Of a DNA stretch of 64,000 nucleotides, positions 15,445-41,729 are shown in pieces. The notes beneath the pieces are model-generated. The model did not search any database. It worked only from the letters and a program-made list of their open reading frames with translations, and had not been told where the DNA came from. Source of the DNA: a virus; IMG/VR virus record IMGVR_UViG_3300029882_000009, positions 1 through 64,000 of that record. One strand, given 5' to 3'. Position 1 is the stretch's first letter. Each line of letters starts with the position of its first letter. The translations under genes and the position numbers were made by a program.

Positions 15445-16100
15445 AATATGTTGTCTATGCTTGAAAAGCCTCTTTTCCAAGACATAGATAGCTAGCTTCA
15501 TTCTAATGAAGCGCAATAACTACTGGTGAGCGTTTATGTTTGCCGACTGGGCGCTTACCAGTAGCTCTATATGTTGTCTGTGGGAACAGGTAAGACTCGT
15601 GAGCTGCGGTGACATCGAGCGCAACAGAACTGGCGCTGCCGTAATGGTTCCTGTTTCCGACTCATAGTGAGTCACGCGAAAAGCGTTGTAAAGAATGAGA
15701 ATAGGTTGGCAGCCCTCAGATTTGAAGATATGTGTGCTGGTGACAGCGAAACACAGAACAGGGTGTTGGGATTAAGAATTCGGCACCCTGTAAGATTTGA
15801 GGATTTCTCTGATAGAACAGGTTTTAGTTGTAGACCGGTTTTACTAAAACAAAGCATGGTGAAAACCTCTGCGCAGACAATCCGGTATGTATATCAGAGG
15901 AAACAATTTCTATGGGGTGTAGTGTAGTTGGGAGCACACCCAGCATGCAGGTAGTGAAGGTTCGATTCCTTTCGTTCCATAGAAAAAATTTCGGAGAGCG
16001 AAGAGGCACCTAACCGGGAACCTCTTTGCCATGACCCGGAAACTTCCTAAGTGCTCTTCATTGGAAAGAGTTAAATGTTGGATCGAACAGCTTAGGAATT
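15445..16100 (+). ncRNA. large ornate structured RNA candidate (GOLLD/ROOL-like)
   Basis: About 655 bases without a credible gene but packed with long helices: TCTATG 15454/CATAGA 15483; GCTTCATT 15495/AATGAAGC 15505; a 13-position helix 15520-15532 with 15552-15564; GGGAACAGG 15582/CCTGTTTCC 15650; GACTCA 15659/TGAGTC 15668; a three-way junction closed by CCTCAGA 15714/TTTGAGG 15796, holding CAGGGTG 15759/CACCCTG 15784; CTCTGATA 15807/TATCAGAG 15892 enclosing a pseudoknot (GTTTTAG 15821/CTAAAAC 15844 with ACCGG 15833/CCGGT 15882); TTTCTATGG 15907/CCATAGAAA 15977; a second pseudoknot (AAGAGG 16001/CCTCTT 16021 with CCGGG 16014/CCCGG 16035); TTCCTAAG 16044/CTTAGGAA 16091. Size, phage location and adjacency to tRNAs recall GOLLD and ROOL RNAs, but I cannot assign a family. 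A direct repeat TATGTTGTCT occurs at 15447 and 15570. Confidence 0.6.
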
Positions 16101-16117
16101 TAAAAATATAGAATTGT

Positions 16118-16194
16118 GGGTAGTTGGTGCATGGGGTTAGCATTCCGGTCTCCAAAACCGGCAGAAGTTGGTTCGAAACCAACACAGCCCGCCA
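16118..16194 (+). tRNA. tRNA-Trp (anticodon CCA)
   Basis: Acceptor GGGTAGT pairs with ACAGCCC (one A-A mismatch). D stem GTGC/GCAT. Anticodon stem CCGGT/ACCGG around CTCCAAA, T at 33 and CCA at 34-36. T arm GTTGG/CCAAC around TTCGAAA. G discriminator and encoded CCA. All arms are present; 77 bases. Confidence 0.9.
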
Positions 16195-16204
16195 AATGAG
16201 GTTT

Positions 16205-16316
16205 TAAAATGTTGAACTATAAGACGGTATGGAGTTAATAGCGGTTATGTTCAGCGACCGAATATAGCCGCAATAATGATAACAGGTCGTTGACAGGCTG
16301 GAATAGACAGCCATTT
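16205..16316 (+). ncRNA. H-type pseudoknot RNA between two tRNA genes
   Basis: GCGGTTAT at 16241 pairs with ATAGCCGC at 16264 (8 pairs). The loop it encloses, GTTCAGCGACC at 16249, pairs with GGTCGTTGAC at 16285 (10 pairs with one bulge), giving a compact two-helix pseudoknot. A separate hairpin GGCTG 16296/CAGCC 16308 follows. No ORF is present. It could be an independent small RNA or a processing/stability element of the polycistronic tRNA transcript. Confidence 0.5.
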
Positions 16317-16319
16317 TAT

Positions 16320-16395
16320 GCCAGTGTAGTCTAATTGGATAGGACATCTTGACAAAATCAGGTAATCGTAGGTTCGATTCCTACCGCTGACACCA
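16320..16395 (+). tRNA. aberrant tRNA (anticodon undetermined)
   Basis: Acceptor GCCAGTG/CGCTGAC (one C-A mismatch), D arm GTCT/GGAC, T arm GTAGG/CCTAC around TTCGATT, A discriminator and encoded CCA give a 76-base tRNA body. The anticodon arm is abnormal. The best stem CTTGA/TCAGG leaves a 5-base loop CAAAA; a 7-base loop ACAAAAT needs a weaker stem and has C, not T, at 33 with nominal anticodon AAA. Likely a decayed tRNA or one selected for an altered loop. Confidence 0.6.
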
Positions 16396-16520: not shown

Positions 16521-16606
16521 GCCAGAGTGGTGAAATGTAAACACAGAGGGCTCAAACCCTTCCGACCCAAAAGGTCTTACGAGTTCAAGTCTCGTCTTTG
16601 GCACCA
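16521..16606 (+). tRNA. tRNA-Leu (anticodon CAA)
   Basis: Class II tRNA, 86 bases. Acceptor GCCAGAG/CTTTGGC, D stem GTG/CAC, anticodon stem GAGGG/CCTTC around CTCAAAC (T33, CAA at 34-36), long variable arm GACC/GGTC, T arm ACGAG/CTCGT around TTCAAGT, A discriminator, encoded CCA. Reads TTG codons. Confidence 0.9.
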
Positions 16607-16627: not shown

Positions 16628-16831
16628 ATGTTGAAAGTTGCGGAGGTGCGAGTTGGCCTACGAGTTCATGTTAGTGTTTATGGCGATGGAATTGTGACAG
16701 AATTAATAGTTACCAGAAACCTTACACAAGCTATAGTTCAATTCGAATCTGGGGCCAAAGAAATATTTACGGCAACCTGGGCAAAACCAACTCACGAAAT
16801 TCATCAGTATGTAGATTTTGAAAAGATATAG
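16628..16831 (+). CDS. small beta-barrel-like protein
   Basis: 67 residues. The pattern VRVGLRVHVSVYGDGIVTEL, then QAIVQFESGAKEIF resembles the SH3-like 'GxxVxHxxxGxGxV...VxFxxGxxxxF' barrel of CarD/TRCF-interaction and DUF3553-type proteins. Such barrels often contact RNA polymerase or DNA; that is an inference here. It lies in the RNA island between tRNA-Leu and an ArsR-type regulator, 11 bases upstream of the latter. Confidence 0.55.
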   Translation: MLKVAEVRVGLRVHVSVYGDGIVTELIVTRNLTQAIVQFESGAKEIFTATWAKPTHEIHQYVDFEKI

Positions 16832-16841
16832 GGTAATAAAC

Positions 16842-17111
16842 ATGGACAATCAGACAATAAATTATCTTGCAGACATATGTTCTGCACTTGCACATCCGGT
16901 AAGGCTTCGTATCGTAGCTCTATTATCAGAAAATTCAAAGTCTGTTAATGATATAACTACTTCACTCGATATGGCGCAAGGCGCTGTTTCTGGTCACTTG
17001 CGTATTCTCAAACAGGCCAAACTTGTCGATTGTGAACGCACTGGCTCAAAAAATATTTATTCTCTTACCGGTCCAAATATTGAGAGTATAAAGAAGTTGA
17101 TAGAACGGTAA
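16842..17111 (+). CDS. ArsR-family winged-helix regulator
   Basis: 89 residues from the ATG; an earlier in-frame TTG is unlikely. ICSALAHPVRLRIVALL (residues about 9-25), SVNDITTSLDMAQGAVSGHL (32-51), RILKQAKLVDCERTGSKNIYSL form the ArsR HTH with its wing. It has no CxC metal site in the recognition helix (ELCVCDL-type residues are absent), so it is a non-metal ArsR protein. It ends 8 bases before the tmRNA gene and may control the RNA block or host genes. The family call is firm; targets are unknown. Confidence 0.85.
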   Translation: MDNQTINYLADICSALAHPVRLRIVALLSENSKSVNDITTSLDMAQGAVSGHLRILKQAKLVDCERTGSKNIYSLTGPNIESIKKLIER

Positions 17112-17119
17112 AAAGATAC

Positions 17120-17482
17120 GGGGGCGATAGGTATCGATTCAGATCAGGATACTCAATAAGCAAGCACTGGATGGTCGTTGGCCAGTATACGAATCCGACC
17201 TAAAAACAAACGCAAACACAACCTTTAAGACCGTTCGCCCTGTCGCTTTCGCTGCAGCCGCCTAAGTCTGATTGCACTACTTCTTCGGAAGTAGTGGGGA
17301 TTGAAACCTTACGTTTCTTTGATTAAGCATCACTCAGAATCTTGGATGCTAGGAAAATAGATTCAAACTTGTTAGATGGTTTGTTCGTAGAAAATCTAAC
17401 ATTATAAATACGAACTATGCTTGTAGGATATATTGAGATATGGGTACTGAAGACGGGAGTTCGACTCTCCCCGCCTCCACCA
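17120..17482 (+). ncRNA. ssrA: transfer-messenger RNA (tmRNA)
   Basis: The 5' end GGGGGCGATAGGTATCGATTC is the hallmark tmRNA start, and GGGGGCG pairs with CGCCTCC at 17472. The T arm GGGAG/CTCCC encloses TTCGACT; A discriminator and encoded CCA end it at 363 bases. A tag reading frame lies at 17212-17265. After its stop is the hairpin CACTACTTC/GAAGTAGTG, and further pairings fill the pseudoknot region. tmRNA frees stalled ribosomes and tags the nascent chain for proteolysis; SmpB would come from the host. tmRNA genes are known in a minority of phages. Confidence 0.93.
17212..17265 (+). other. tmRNA tag-peptide reading frame
   Basis: GCA at 17212, after AAAAACAAAC, is the likely resume codon, as GCA is in E. 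coli. The frame reads ANTTFKTVRPVAFAAAA and ends TAA. A hydrophobic Ala-rich end fits ClpXP-type tags, but it ends AAAA, not the common ALAA. The resume codon is inferred by analogy. Confidence 0.7.
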
Positions 17483-17567
17483 AATTTCGGGATATAGCTT
17501 GGATACTGCTTTAGCGGCTGTCTCCTTTCGGGGTGATAGAGTATTTGGGAACGACGGCCTGAAATTT
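17483..17567 (+). ncRNA. structured RNA adjoining the tmRNA 3' end
   Basis: AAATTTCGGG (beginning at the last base of the tmRNA CCA, 17482) pairs with CCTGAAATTT at 17558 (10 pairs, one G-T). Inside are ATACT 17503/AGTAT 17540 and a C-rich/G-rich hairpin around TTTC. It has no T arm and no ORF. Possibly a processing element for tmRNA maturation, a terminator-like structure without a T tract, or an independent RNA. Confidence 0.4.
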
Positions 17568-17581
17568 TAAACACAATGTGA

Positions 17582-17713
17582 CCGTAATACCCATAATGGT
17601 TAATGGGGTGCGATTCCGGTAGTCGTAGTTCAAGCACAGTTGGTCTCACTGTACGCGCGTATGGTGAAGGAGATTGGGGTTTGATCCAGGTTCGAATCCT
17701 TGGTTGCGGTCCA
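17582..17713 (+). tRNA. oversized tRNA-like element (132 bases)
   Basis: CCGTAAT pairs with GTTGCGG (7 pairs), T discriminator and encoded CCA. D stem CCAT/ATGG encloses AATGGTTA. The T arm CCAGG/CCTTG encloses TTCGAAT. Between D and T arms lie about 85 bases instead of about 25, holding hairpins TGCGA/TCGTA and ACAGT/ACTGT (loop TGGTCTC, no T at 33). Either a tRNA with an inserted segment or a tRNA-like RNA; no anticodon can be assigned. Confidence 0.4.
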
Positions 17714-17735
17714 AATTTTATAAGAAAGTACGTAT

Positions 17736-19655
17736 ATGTATTCAGCAAAAATAATCAGGGATTCTATATCATCAGCAGGAGCACGGATCACTACCTTTGA
17801 ATTCGTAATACCTCGTATTGTATTATGTGAATTTAACACACACAGATCTCTTTGTCTCGCTGGAGATTCTATATTAGAATTCAGTAGCCCAAGAGCGCAA
17901 AAACGTGAAAGTAGTGCCACCAAGTATCCTATCTCAATCGAGAATTTCTATCGTAAATGGACTGAAGGAGCACAGCCAAGACCGTCAAAAAACCATAAAA
18001 TACTCGATATGTCGTTATTGGATGATAATAGTGTTTATACTACAATGGAACTCAAAAACATATTTGGGTTCAGCAATTATTCTGGACTAAATGGATCTTG
18101 TAGATCTGGTTTGTTAAAAGCCGTGAAAGAATTGGATGGTCGGCAATGGCTGGTGTTGGGGTCTGATTTTAAGAAGTTTTACGAGCGTCCACGAGTTAAT
18201 AACCAACCAATTCAATATCGACTCAAAGACATGACGATCCGACAGATCAATGAACATACAAACAAAATACAATATTCAACTGTTGTTGATTGTTTCTATT
18301 CAGGTCGTAAAGAAATTTTTGAAGTAAAGGCCGGAAGACACCAAATAGCCGGAAGTAAAGATCATAAAATTTGGACAGATACTGGTTATGTTACAATCGA
18401 GAATATTATTCCAGGCACTACCAGAATAGCCGTGCGACGATTGGGAAAACCAGAAACAGAAAAACTTCATCGTTTTACAAGAGCAGAACAACATAGTTAT
18501 ATTATGTGGAACAGAAAAGCCAAGCTTCAACTTATAGCTGAAATGGGTTGTTGTCAGAAATGTGGATCTGTTGATCAACTGCGCATTCATCATATTCAAC
18601 CACGTTATTTACGACCTGATTTGGTAGCCGACAAAAACAATGTTACCCTACTTTGTGAAGGTTGCCATAGAAAAGAGCACGAAGTTCAAGGTTGGCAAAC
18701 AGGATTTGAATATTATGTTGACTTCATAACAGTTGATTCAATCAATTATCGTGGAGTTGAAGACACATATGATCTTGAAATTGCCGGAGAATTTCCAAAC
18801 TTTTTCGCGAATGGTATTGTAGTTCATAATAGTAGGAACAGTGCATCCAGTCGTGCTATTCCTGTTGAACGTAAAATTAAACAGGTAATGGAAACTCCTT
18901 TTATCCCTCTTGTGTGGGCGACTAACAAAAAAGGTATGCAGGGTGGAGAACCATTAAGTGTTGAAGATGAACGTTTAGCAATTAGAGCATGGTTAAACGC
19001 CAGAGATCAAATGGTGCTTGCTGCAAATTACCTATCAAAAGATTTGAACGTCCACAAGTCCATTGCAAATCGTCTTATAGAGCCATTTGCATGGCAAACC
19101 ATAATTGCGACTGCCACAGATTGGCAGAATTATTTTACGCTGCGATGTCATGAATTGGCTCAACCTGAAATACAACTACCTTCTTTTCTTGCAATGGAAG
19201 CATATGATGAATCGATTCCAAAGAAAATAGAAACTCATAACTGGCACTTACCTTATATCAGTGACGAAGAAGTTGAGACTATGATGTACTGCGGAATCCT
19301 CACTGATGAATGGGGATATGAATTGCGTTCATTAGAATCTCTCATATCTGTCTCTGCTGGCCGATGTGCCAGAGTCTCAGTTCTCGGTCACGATGGTTCG
19401 CGAAGTTATGAAAAGGATTTAGGGTTAAATGATGGGTTATTGGCAAACAACCCCCCTCATGCCTCACCAACTGAACATCAAGCTATTGCTTTGAAGAATC
19501 GTGAAAGTAAAAGTGGTAACTTCACAGGTTGGGGCCAGAACCGTAAAAGATACCCAAATGAATGTTCTAAGACTATGCCATCAACAATCAATCCATGGGA
19601 TATAAAGGTGGTGTTGGCACATCTAGATTCAATATATGAGACCCAGAATGTCTAA
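17736..19655 (+). CDS. thyX: FAD-dependent thymidylate synthase ThyX, intein-split
   Basis: 639 residues encoding a ThyX of about 313 residues plus a 326-residue intein. ThyX makes dTMP from dUMP using FAD and methylenetetrahydrofolate. The ThyX signature becomes contiguous only after splicing: THRSL (35-39) joins SRNSASSR (366-373), giving the RHRxxSxNxxSxR-type motif. Following blocks FIPLVWATNKKGMQG and FAWQTIIATATDWQNYF are typical of the phage branch of the family. The intein begins at Cys40 and ends His-Asn365 with Ser366 as the +1 residue. ATG at 17736; it follows the tRNA-like element by 22 bases. Works with dCMP deaminase and the dNMP kinase downstream. Confidence 0.9.
   Translation: MYSAKIIRDSISSAGARITTFEFVIPRIVLCEFNTHRSLCLAGDSILEFSSPRAQKRESSATKYPISIENFYRKWTEGAQPRPSKNHKILDMSLLDDNSVYTTMELKNIFGFSNYSGLNGSCRSGLLKAVKELDGRQWLVLGSDFKKFYERPRVNNQPIQYRLKDMTIRQINEHTNKIQYSTVVDCFYSGRKEIFEVKAGRHQIAGSKDHKIWTDTGYVTIENIIPGTTRIAVRRLGKPETEKLHRFTRAEQHSYIMWNRKAKLQLIAEMGCCQKCGSVDQLRIHHIQPRYLRPDLVADKNNVTLLCEGCHRKEHEVQGWQTGFEYYVDFITVDSINYRGVEDTYDLEIAGEFPNFFANGIVVHNSRNSASSRAIPVERKIKQVMETPFIPLVWATNKKGMQGGEPLSVEDERLAIRAWLNARDQMVLAANYLSKDLNVHKSIANRLIEPFAWQTIIATATDWQNYFTLRCHELAQPEIQLPSFLAMEAYDESIPKKIETHNWHLPYISDEEVETMMYCGILTDEWGYELRSLESLISVSAGRCARVSVLGHDGSRSYEKDLGLNDGLLANNPPHASPTEHQAIALKNRESKSGNFTGWGQNRKRYPNECSKTMPSTINPWDIKVVLAHLDSIYETQNV
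17853..18830 (+). mobile_element. intein with HNH endonuclease in ThyX
   Basis: 326 residues, class 1. N-terminal block CLAGDSILEF; block B around GSKDHKIWT; C-terminal blocks VEDTYDLEIAGEFPNFFANG and VVHN before Ser. The centre carries an HNH zinc endonuclease: CCQKCGSVDQLRIHHIQPRY, then NNVTLLCEGCHRKEH. An extra segment at about 60-140 (DMSLLDDN...FKKFYERP) is not part of the usual splicing fold and looks like a DNA-binding insert. All splice-junction residues are intact, so splicing and homing both look possible. Confidence 0.92.
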
Positions 19656-39993: not shown

Positions 39994-40536
39994 CTATCCC
40001 TGAATGTCGGTGGCAGTCTTCAGGGCGTCAAGGCGATTAATCCAGCCTCGTAAAAATTGTTCATCGTGCGGGTAATGTGTGGCCAGGTACTCGTAGAACT
40101 GGACGCGCGCATTGATGTCAGCGAGCGCTAGGTTCGCCGGGTGTTGCGTGTTGTGAATAGCGTCACTTAAAGCTTGTGACCATTCCTCGCTCGTTGCAGA
40201 TGTGTTGAAAATCTGGTTAAGTGTCAGGATTGCACGCCCAATGCCTTCGTTTACGCTACAGTCGAAGGTCACGATATCGAGCGGGACCGGCAGTCCTTCG
40301 CAGTGACACGGGGACCAATACCGCGTACTGTAGATGTCCTCTACTTCTGTCTGTGTAATGAGCCGCACGTCCTGCGTTGGTTCACCCTTAGATTTCCGGT
40401 AGGCGTCATAGTCTATGTGGGTTATCCCGAAGTTGGTTGCGCCTCCGTTGTCGCCAGGATCATCTGTATAGCCGCCCTCAGCTTGCAGGACGAATGCGAG
40501 AGATATTTGGAAACGGGTTTTTGTCGTTGTGGTCAT
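39994..40536 (-). CDS. endolysin, GH108-type N-acetylmuramidase
   Basis: 180 residues. LQAEGGYTDDPGDNGGATNFGIT near 17-39 (split: LQAEGGYTDDPGD and NGGATNFGIT) is the GH108 catalytic signature with Glu20. IYSTRYW and FDCSVNEGIGRAI are the following conserved blocks. Full length for the family (about 170-190). No signal peptide, so it needs a holin for release. GC-richer than the early genes. It overlaps the intein-containing gene's stop. Confidence 0.85.
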   Translation of the reverse strand: MTTTTKTRFQISLAFVLQAEGGYTDDPGDNGGATNFGITHIDYDAYRKSKGEPTQDVRLITQTEVEDIYSTRYWSPCHCEGLPVPLDIVTFDCSVNEGIGRAILTLNQIFNTSATSEEWSQALSDAIHNTQHPANLALADINARVQFYEYLATHYPHDEQFLRGWINRLDALKTATDIQG

Positions 40537-41729
40537 TCCTGATGCTGGCTTTCTATATCACCGATACTTGCACCACTTGCTGGCATGACAATTGCATCTG
40601 TCTCAGTATCCGCTTTCCAGAAACGTTGTGGTTGCCATAAAGGATATGGAAGTAAATGAATACCACGTAATCCTATATGGTGAAGACGACAATTATGTAC
40701 AGCCAATCCACCACCAATATAACTGTTACAACCTGACACCTCTATGTGGTATACTAAACCACTATGGAACTTTCTACTAATTTGCCGAGGCGCTGCCCAC
40801 CGTGCCTTGAGGGCCGGAATATTAGATACGATATCAACATTTGTCGTATCTGTGAAGGGCAATTCACCGTGCCTCACAAAGTCGCCAGTAAATACACCAC
40901 TTGTAGTTCCGTCTGTGAATCTTCGCGTAGAAGTATTGACAAACTGATTTATCCCAAACAAAGAATTTGCCCGATTTGTAACATGTCTTTCATTCGAGGG
41001 AAAGGAGGTCATCAATCGTTTTGCTCCAACTATGGAATTAAAACCGATAACAGAATCGAGAATCTCCAAATCTTCGAAACTAATTCCGACCACCTCAAGC
41101 ACGAACATAGAATCGGTAAGTTCGACAACCGGCCTCCACGTCCCAGAAACGAGAAAGGGATGTTCGTTAGTGGCACCATATCCATTGACAATATTGATAT
41201 ACTCACTAACATACCGACTTCCAGTACCAGTGACTAAATGAGGGTTTAGGTCGTGTCCCACAACTTCATCACCGATACTAATTTCACTTATTGGCTTTTG
41301 GTCGCCATCAGCCATCAACACAGGGGTGTCTCCGGTTTGGCAAAGTACAGTTAGATTCCCTTCACCTTCTATGAACTCCAAAAATTGTTCATCAGATGTA
41401 AGACCGAACTCGGGATATAGTTCTTCGAACTTTGAAATATCCACACCTTCTTGTAGTGAATATTCAACTAAAGAATGGTGTAATTCAAGATCCCCAGCGC
41501 ACTCATGATTTCCAACCCAGCACTTCATCTTACCAAGTTTGGTAAGACGTGCTTTGGCTTGGTTAAAATATTTGTAGTGAGGATCTCCAACACGTGGAGG
41601 ATGTTCAGGTACAGCTTCACGAATATGAATGGTCGTGCTTTGATAATGAGCGGCAGTGACAGTACTGACATTTGTTGCAGTATTGGTCACTGTTTGCTTA
41701 ACATCGACTGTCTCTGTAACATCTGCCAT
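40533..41729 (-). CDS. HNH-like phage protein, intein-split
   Basis: 398 residues: 181 host residues plus a 217-residue intein. The host part KCWVGNHECAGDLELHHSLV (69-88) and, after splicing, NLTVLCRLHHIGLRG form a C...C...HH...N...HH pattern of an HNH-type zinc fold I recall as a common virion-region protein in actinobacterial phages. The role is not established; it may be a minor structural or packaging nuclease. The intein splits between Leu129 and Cys347, inside the C-terminal HNH motif, so an unspliced product would be inactive. Overlaps the lysin start by 4 bases. Confidence 0.7.
   Translation of the reverse strand: MADVTETVDVKQTVTNTATNVSTVTAAHYQSTTIHIREAVPEHPPRVGDPHYKYFNQAKARLTKLGKMKCWVGNHECAGDLELHHSLVEYSLQEGVDISKFEELYPEFGLTSDEQFLEFIEGEGNLTVLCQTGDTPVLMADGDQKPISEISIGDEVVGHDLNPHLVTGTGSRYVSEYINIVNGYGATNEHPFLVSGTWRPVVELTDSMFVLEVVGISFEDLEILDSVIGFNSIVGAKRLMTSFPSNERHVTNRANSLFGINQFVNTSTRRFTDGTTSGVFTGDFVRHGELPFTDTTNVDIVSNIPALKARWAAPRQISRKFHSGLVYHIEVSGCNSYIGGGLAVHNCRLHHIGLRGIHLLPYPLWQPQRFWKADTETDAIVMPASGASIGDIESQHQE
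40726..40755 (+). promoter_or_regulatory. promoter for the antisense HNH gene
   Basis: TGTGG then TATACT, the same extended -10 type as the phage early promoters, with a weak TTACAA at 18 spacing. ATG lies 8 bases past the -10 box and has no ribosome site, so a leaderless transcript is likely. Confidence 0.5.
40764..41237 (+). CDS. HNH homing-endonuclease-like gene inside the intein, antisense and probably degenerate
   Basis: 157 residues, oriented opposite to its host gene. Zinc motifs CPPCLEG, CRICEGQF...CSSVC and CPICNMSFIRGKGGHQSFCS precede KTDNRIENLQIFETNSDHL, the typical NxxNL/H end of HNH endonucleases. The usual middle block with the first His pair (HH(x)D/NG) is missing between them, so catalysis is doubtful. 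Residues after about 125 are just antisense to the intein's TNEHPF block and are probably not part of the original protein. Confidence 0.6.
   Translation: MELSTNLPRRCPPCLEGRNIRYDINICRICEGQFTVPHKVASKYTTCSSVCESSRRSIDKLIYPKQRICPICNMSFIRGKGGHQSFCSNYGIKTDNRIENLQIFETNSDHLKHEHRIGKFDNRPPRPRNEKGMFVSGTISIDNIDILTNIPTSSTSD

Follow-up and report, generated by a model that had tools for sequence, protein, structure and literature searches.

An RNA with the anatomy of a tmRNA is charged by AlaRS and bound by SmpB, and it rescues stalled ribosomes in the process known as trans-translation. Several large tailed phages carry such a gene, among them the mycobacteriophages of the Bxz1 group, Wildcat, Bacillus phage G, Streptomyces phage Comrade, and the OM43 phage Melnitz. 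The versions from mycobacteriophages and Bacillus phage G were listed in 2014 (PMC4131195), and a 2022 survey found a tmRNA in 402 of 18,146 phage genomes (PMC9004378), which bears out the original prediction for the present locus that only a minority of phages possess one. Our scan of IMG/VR turned up at least 65 additional predicted tmRNAs on viral contigs, some of which may be prophage or host DNA. Further, the Achromobacter phages Axy11 (L204:3974-4263) and JWDelta (L205:3972-4356) have permuted two-piece tmRNA genes (RF04321, 97.6 and 95.8 bits, respectively), and their GenBank records are without a tmRNA annotation. A phage tmRNA is uncommon yet well documented, and in the case described here only the rare all-alanine end of the tag is out of the ordinary.

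The window analyzed here, a stretch of 64 kb, constitutes the first part of a 97,745-base (~98-kb) viral record from an uncultivated bacteriophage, and contains a one-piece tmRNA gene, whose features and neighbors are collected in Table 1. The Infernal match to RF00023 covers model positions 1 to 374 of 374 without truncation and scores 109.7 bits (E 5.7e-42) against a curated cut-off of 47 bits. This score rules out a false-positive call and passes the model-score check that had been proposed for the locus. A permuted tmRNA was likewise rejected, as RF04321 reaches only 19.2 bits at this gene (cut-off, 47).

Table 1. Positions in the 64-kb window of the tmRNA gene, its parts, and the neighboring genes
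Feature	Position	Strand	Evidence
One-piece tmRNA (ssrA) gene	17120..17482	+	Rfam RF00023 and ARAGORN, exactly the same span from each
Acceptor stem P1, 5' strand GGGGGCG	17120..17126	+	Pairs with 17472-17478; 7/7 pairs, 1 G-U
Pseudoknot PK1	17166..17200	+	Explicit pairing
Tag reading frame, GCA resume codon to TAA, ANTTFKTVRPVAFAAAA	17212..17265	+	ARAGORN, gene positions 93-146; sequence read
Hairpin after tag stop (P5 position), CACTACTTC/GAAGTAGTG	17275..17296	+	9/9 pairs
Hairpin in PK3 position	17326..17350	+	6/6 pairs
Pseudoknot PK4, TGTTAGAT/ATCTAACA and GTTCGTA/TACGAAC	17370..17415	+	8/8 and 7/7 pairs
T arm (GGGAG-TTCGACT-CTCCC), acceptor 3' strand CGCCTCC, encoded ACCA	17455..17482	+	Sequence read; Rfam alignment
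Atypical tRNA	15913..15980	+	Rfam only, 37.2 bits
tRNA-Trp(CCA), tmRNA cluster	16118..16194	+	ARAGORN and Rfam
tRNA-Phe(AAA), tmRNA cluster	16320..16395	+	ARAGORN and Rfam
tRNA-Leu(CAA), tmRNA cluster	16521..16606	+	ARAGORN and Rfam
ArsR-family HTH gene	16818..17111	+	Pfam PF01022, E 2.7e-13
ThyX-type thymidylate synthase with HNH-bearing intein, downstream of tmRNA	17736..19655	+	phrog_85, E 2e-55; HNH families; PF01844

The tRNA-like domain has the elements expected in a one-piece tmRNA, namely, a 7-bp acceptor, within which explicit pairing places a G3.U wobble, the mark of alanine identity, at position 3, along with the T arm and the CCA end. The tag frame of 17 codons opens with an alanine resume codon (GCA at 17212), is preceded by an A at position -4 (17208), and closes with a terminal stop (TAA, 17263-17265). 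By explicit pairing both PK1 and PK4 are present; the former has two 5-bp stems, ACTGG/CCAGT (17166-17170/17182-17186) and GGTCG/CGACC (17173-17177/17196-17200). Some interlocked 7+7 knot also occurs in 90 of 2000 mononucleotide shuffles of the whole gene, and PK4 alone is therefore moderate evidence. At both the PK2 and PK3 positions we found single hairpins, where interlocking second stems are not established. The acceptor, T arm, CCA, tag frame, and post-tag hairpin of the original prediction are all confirmed by Rfam, ARAGORN, and pairing, and its reading of the tag, ANTTFKTVRPVAFAAAA, is correct. Judged by these elements, the gene is intact and is predicted to be functional.

In its overall plan the RNA matches the one-piece bacterial tmRNA (RF00023), with the same G3.U acceptor, T arm, CCA, PK1, tag frame, and structured chain ending in PK4. 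It departs from that form in its reduced PK2/PK3 region, in its D-loop region, which reads GGTATCGAT where the consensus of the Rfam alignment has GGATTCGAC, and in its tag, which ends in -AAAA rather than the usual -LAA. Like the tmRNA of Comrade, which encodes the tag ANSKNASAYALAA, it lies in a tRNA cluster, whereas the tmRNA of Melnitz is permuted and in two pieces. In contrast to the known phage tmRNAs, outside its 3' end it matches no phage record at the blastn level. Searches with the tmRNA and its surroundings recovered no DNA relatives among plasmids and, among phages, none beyond the conserved 3' 30 nt; the closely related phage sequences are nearly identical pieces of this same virus (L004, L005, and L007-L009). 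One further relative has a polymerase locus of 45% identity, and its 62.9-kb record is without a tmRNA. Comrade itself is among the nearest matches to the polymerase of our record, at ~30% identity, and is a distant DnaE-polymerase relative. A pattern combining the D-loop with the 3' end matched 13 MAGs, mostly of Planctomycetota, whose tmRNAs are not close and whose tags, where ARAGORN gave one, end in -LAA or -MAA. No host was assigned by tag or by sequence similarity across the plasmids, the phages, and this pattern in MAGs, no close homologue of the tmRNA was present in the collections searched, and recent simple capture was not seen in a limited search for a host copy.

The tag end was called unusual in the original prediction, and our scans of IMG/VR and bacterial genomes uphold this. 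Among the IMG/VR matches listed, the 55 distinct predicted tags, a few of which are wrong frames, include 36 ending in -LAA, 6 in -MAA, and none in -AAA. A pattern of matched geometry found 42 IMG/VR contigs with an Ala-Leu(CTN)-Ala-Ala tag end and none with four alanines, and a second gap range in IMG/VR also gave no four-alanine end. About 785 bacterial genomes in two phyla were scanned with the same geometry: tags ending in AAAA were found in 0 of 398 genomes in the phylum of G009 (source locus titled Sulfuricella), where the scan was run without the Leu(CTN) control, and in 0 of 387 in the phylum of G010 (titled Verrucomicrobia), where that control matched 7 of 59. Because these scans, within their limited geometry, returned none, we consider the -AAAA end to be rare.

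The same survey brought up other tags worthy of mention. Two related viral-contig tmRNAs (L051:2453-2882 and L070:1301-1725) have 35-residue tags, ANDNVDMEFAPSVAEADEILAKFGYVEEEALQPVA and ANDDIDMEVALSVAEADEILAKFGYVEEEALQMAV, the longest in the IMG/VR survey, for which ARAGORN gave other starts or frames. They share an identical core of 21 residues in which the codon changes (4 codons) are all synonymous, and neither tmRNA has a relative in the phage collection. A third viral-contig tmRNA (L083:2041-2457) has a possible 33-residue tag (GEDNIAGLL...) without the usual Ala start codon, which could reflect a novel resume codon or, alternatively, an incorrectly assigned frame.

The tmRNA is accompanied in the record by phage genes, including those for the terminase (TerL), portal, and major capsid protein, along with a DnaE-type DNA polymerase, a primase/helicase, a Sak4-like protein, and ThyX with an HNH intein; with a complete tmRNA and no tyrosine integrase in the same record, it qualifies as phage encoded. 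SmpB, ClpP, and tyrosine integrase were not detected in the 97.7-kb record, which indicates that the tmRNA needs partners supplied by the host and shows no obvious sign of being an att-site relic; an att-site remnant is ruled out by the complete gene and the lack of a tyrosine integrase. The record begins and ends in GTCGGCA-type tandem repeats (1-160 and 97,500-97,745), with an exact match of 126 bases between them, suggesting a near-complete or circularly permuted genome, which may have been broken within a repeat. The record most likely represents a virulent, probably lytic tailed phage that draws on the SmpB and proteases of its host.

Closer to the tmRNA, the ArsR-family gene ends 8 nt before the tmRNA starts, and the two are possibly cotranscribed. 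In the intein-bearing ThyX, the match to the intein splicing family PF14890 falls below its cut-off, and the closest relative is a protein of Virus Rctr197k (40% identity), labelled there as an HNH endonuclease. Another protein (40533-41729, minus strand) has a Hom_end-associated Hint domain barely over the cut-off and may represent another intein or a homing element. Several spacers around the cluster outfold their shuffles (15983-16110, 16195-16315, 17483-17572, and 17573-17716, with z of -2.9, -3.9, -1.9, and -2.1, respectively). The last of these resembles a tRNA, with a T arm, an acceptor, and a very long extra arm, and is called by neither default ARAGORN nor Rfam.

Taking these findings together, we propose, with considerable confidence for a reading made from sequence, that this is a phage-borne tmRNA using host AlaRS, SmpB, EF-Tu, and proteases for ribosome rescue in infection. 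It would be transcribed together with the phage tRNA cluster or close to it. Host AlaRS would recognize the G3.U pair and attach alanine, and the charged RNA would be bound by host SmpB and EF-Tu. It would then move into ribosomes that have stalled on broken or non-stop mRNAs, where Ala plus ANTTFKTVRPVAFAAAA would be added to the nascent product and the ribosome freed. By releasing the stalled ribosome in this way, the tmRNA could allow phage translation to go on while mRNA decays in infection. Host proteases of the ClpXP type would probably still degrade the tagged products, perhaps at a slower rate than if the tag ended in LAA.

One competing explanation is that a host ssrA was picked up along with tRNA genes and is carried without need. 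Acquisition of tRNA genes and ssrA by phages is indeed frequent, and ssrA is known to serve as a site of integration (PMC9004378, PMC3203893). However, the record lacks a tyrosine integrase, and the functional elements of the gene are intact despite the absence of a close relative in the collections searched, which suggests long residence under selection and makes a neutral passenger unlikely. The suggestion that the phage copy stands in for a host tmRNA lost to a defense or toxin nuclease is plausible by analogy only: the HigB toxin cleaves tmRNA in Mycobacterium tuberculosis (PMC3912914), tRNA-cutting defenses can be evaded by phage tRNAs (PMC10264068), and the present tmRNA is very diverged outside its 3' end. 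Nothing in this genome indicates such a replacement, though, and there is no sequence sign of a cleavage-resistant site, so we give this proposal a low probability. A further possibility is that the RNA acts as a decoy, titrating SmpB or ribosomes of the host and thereby inhibiting its trans-translation; this has been proposed for the RNA of phage DS6A, which has only the tRNA-like domain (PMC4131195). A decoy would have no use for a tag frame, a resume codon, or the PK1 and PK4 pseudoknots, all of which are retained here, and this reading is highly improbable.

Other alternatives concern the fate of the tagged protein. The rarity of -AAAA could mean that the tag is weakly or non-proteolytic, with the phage keeping rescue while sparing unfinished proteins, and the -AAV variants of the Escherichia coli tag, likewise without leucine, decay at a slower rate than -LAA (PMC9097571, PMC9382460). 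Yet -AAV-tagged products are nonetheless degraded, and in Bacillus subtilis poly-alanine tails serve as degrons for ClpP (PMC8373112); this possibility thus appears rather doubtful, and altered proteolysis of -AAAA-tagged products is, by analogy with these cases, a weak inference. The poly-alanine tails added by RqcH in bacterial RQC also present C-terminal alanines and are able to act as ClpP degrons, but their addition is template free and by unrelated machinery, and the likeness to the -AAAA tag is a functional analogy only. There is a slim chance that, by mimicking such a tail, the all-alanine end uncouples rapid proteolysis from rescue or sends tagged proteins to a different host protease.

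The locus adds a well-formed tmRNA, from a phage without a close DNA relative in the phage collection and with a rare natural degron end, and is otherwise a further case of a known but little-studied habit among large phages. It also offers a simple way to ask whether phages adjust what happens to tagged proteins independently of ribosome rescue.
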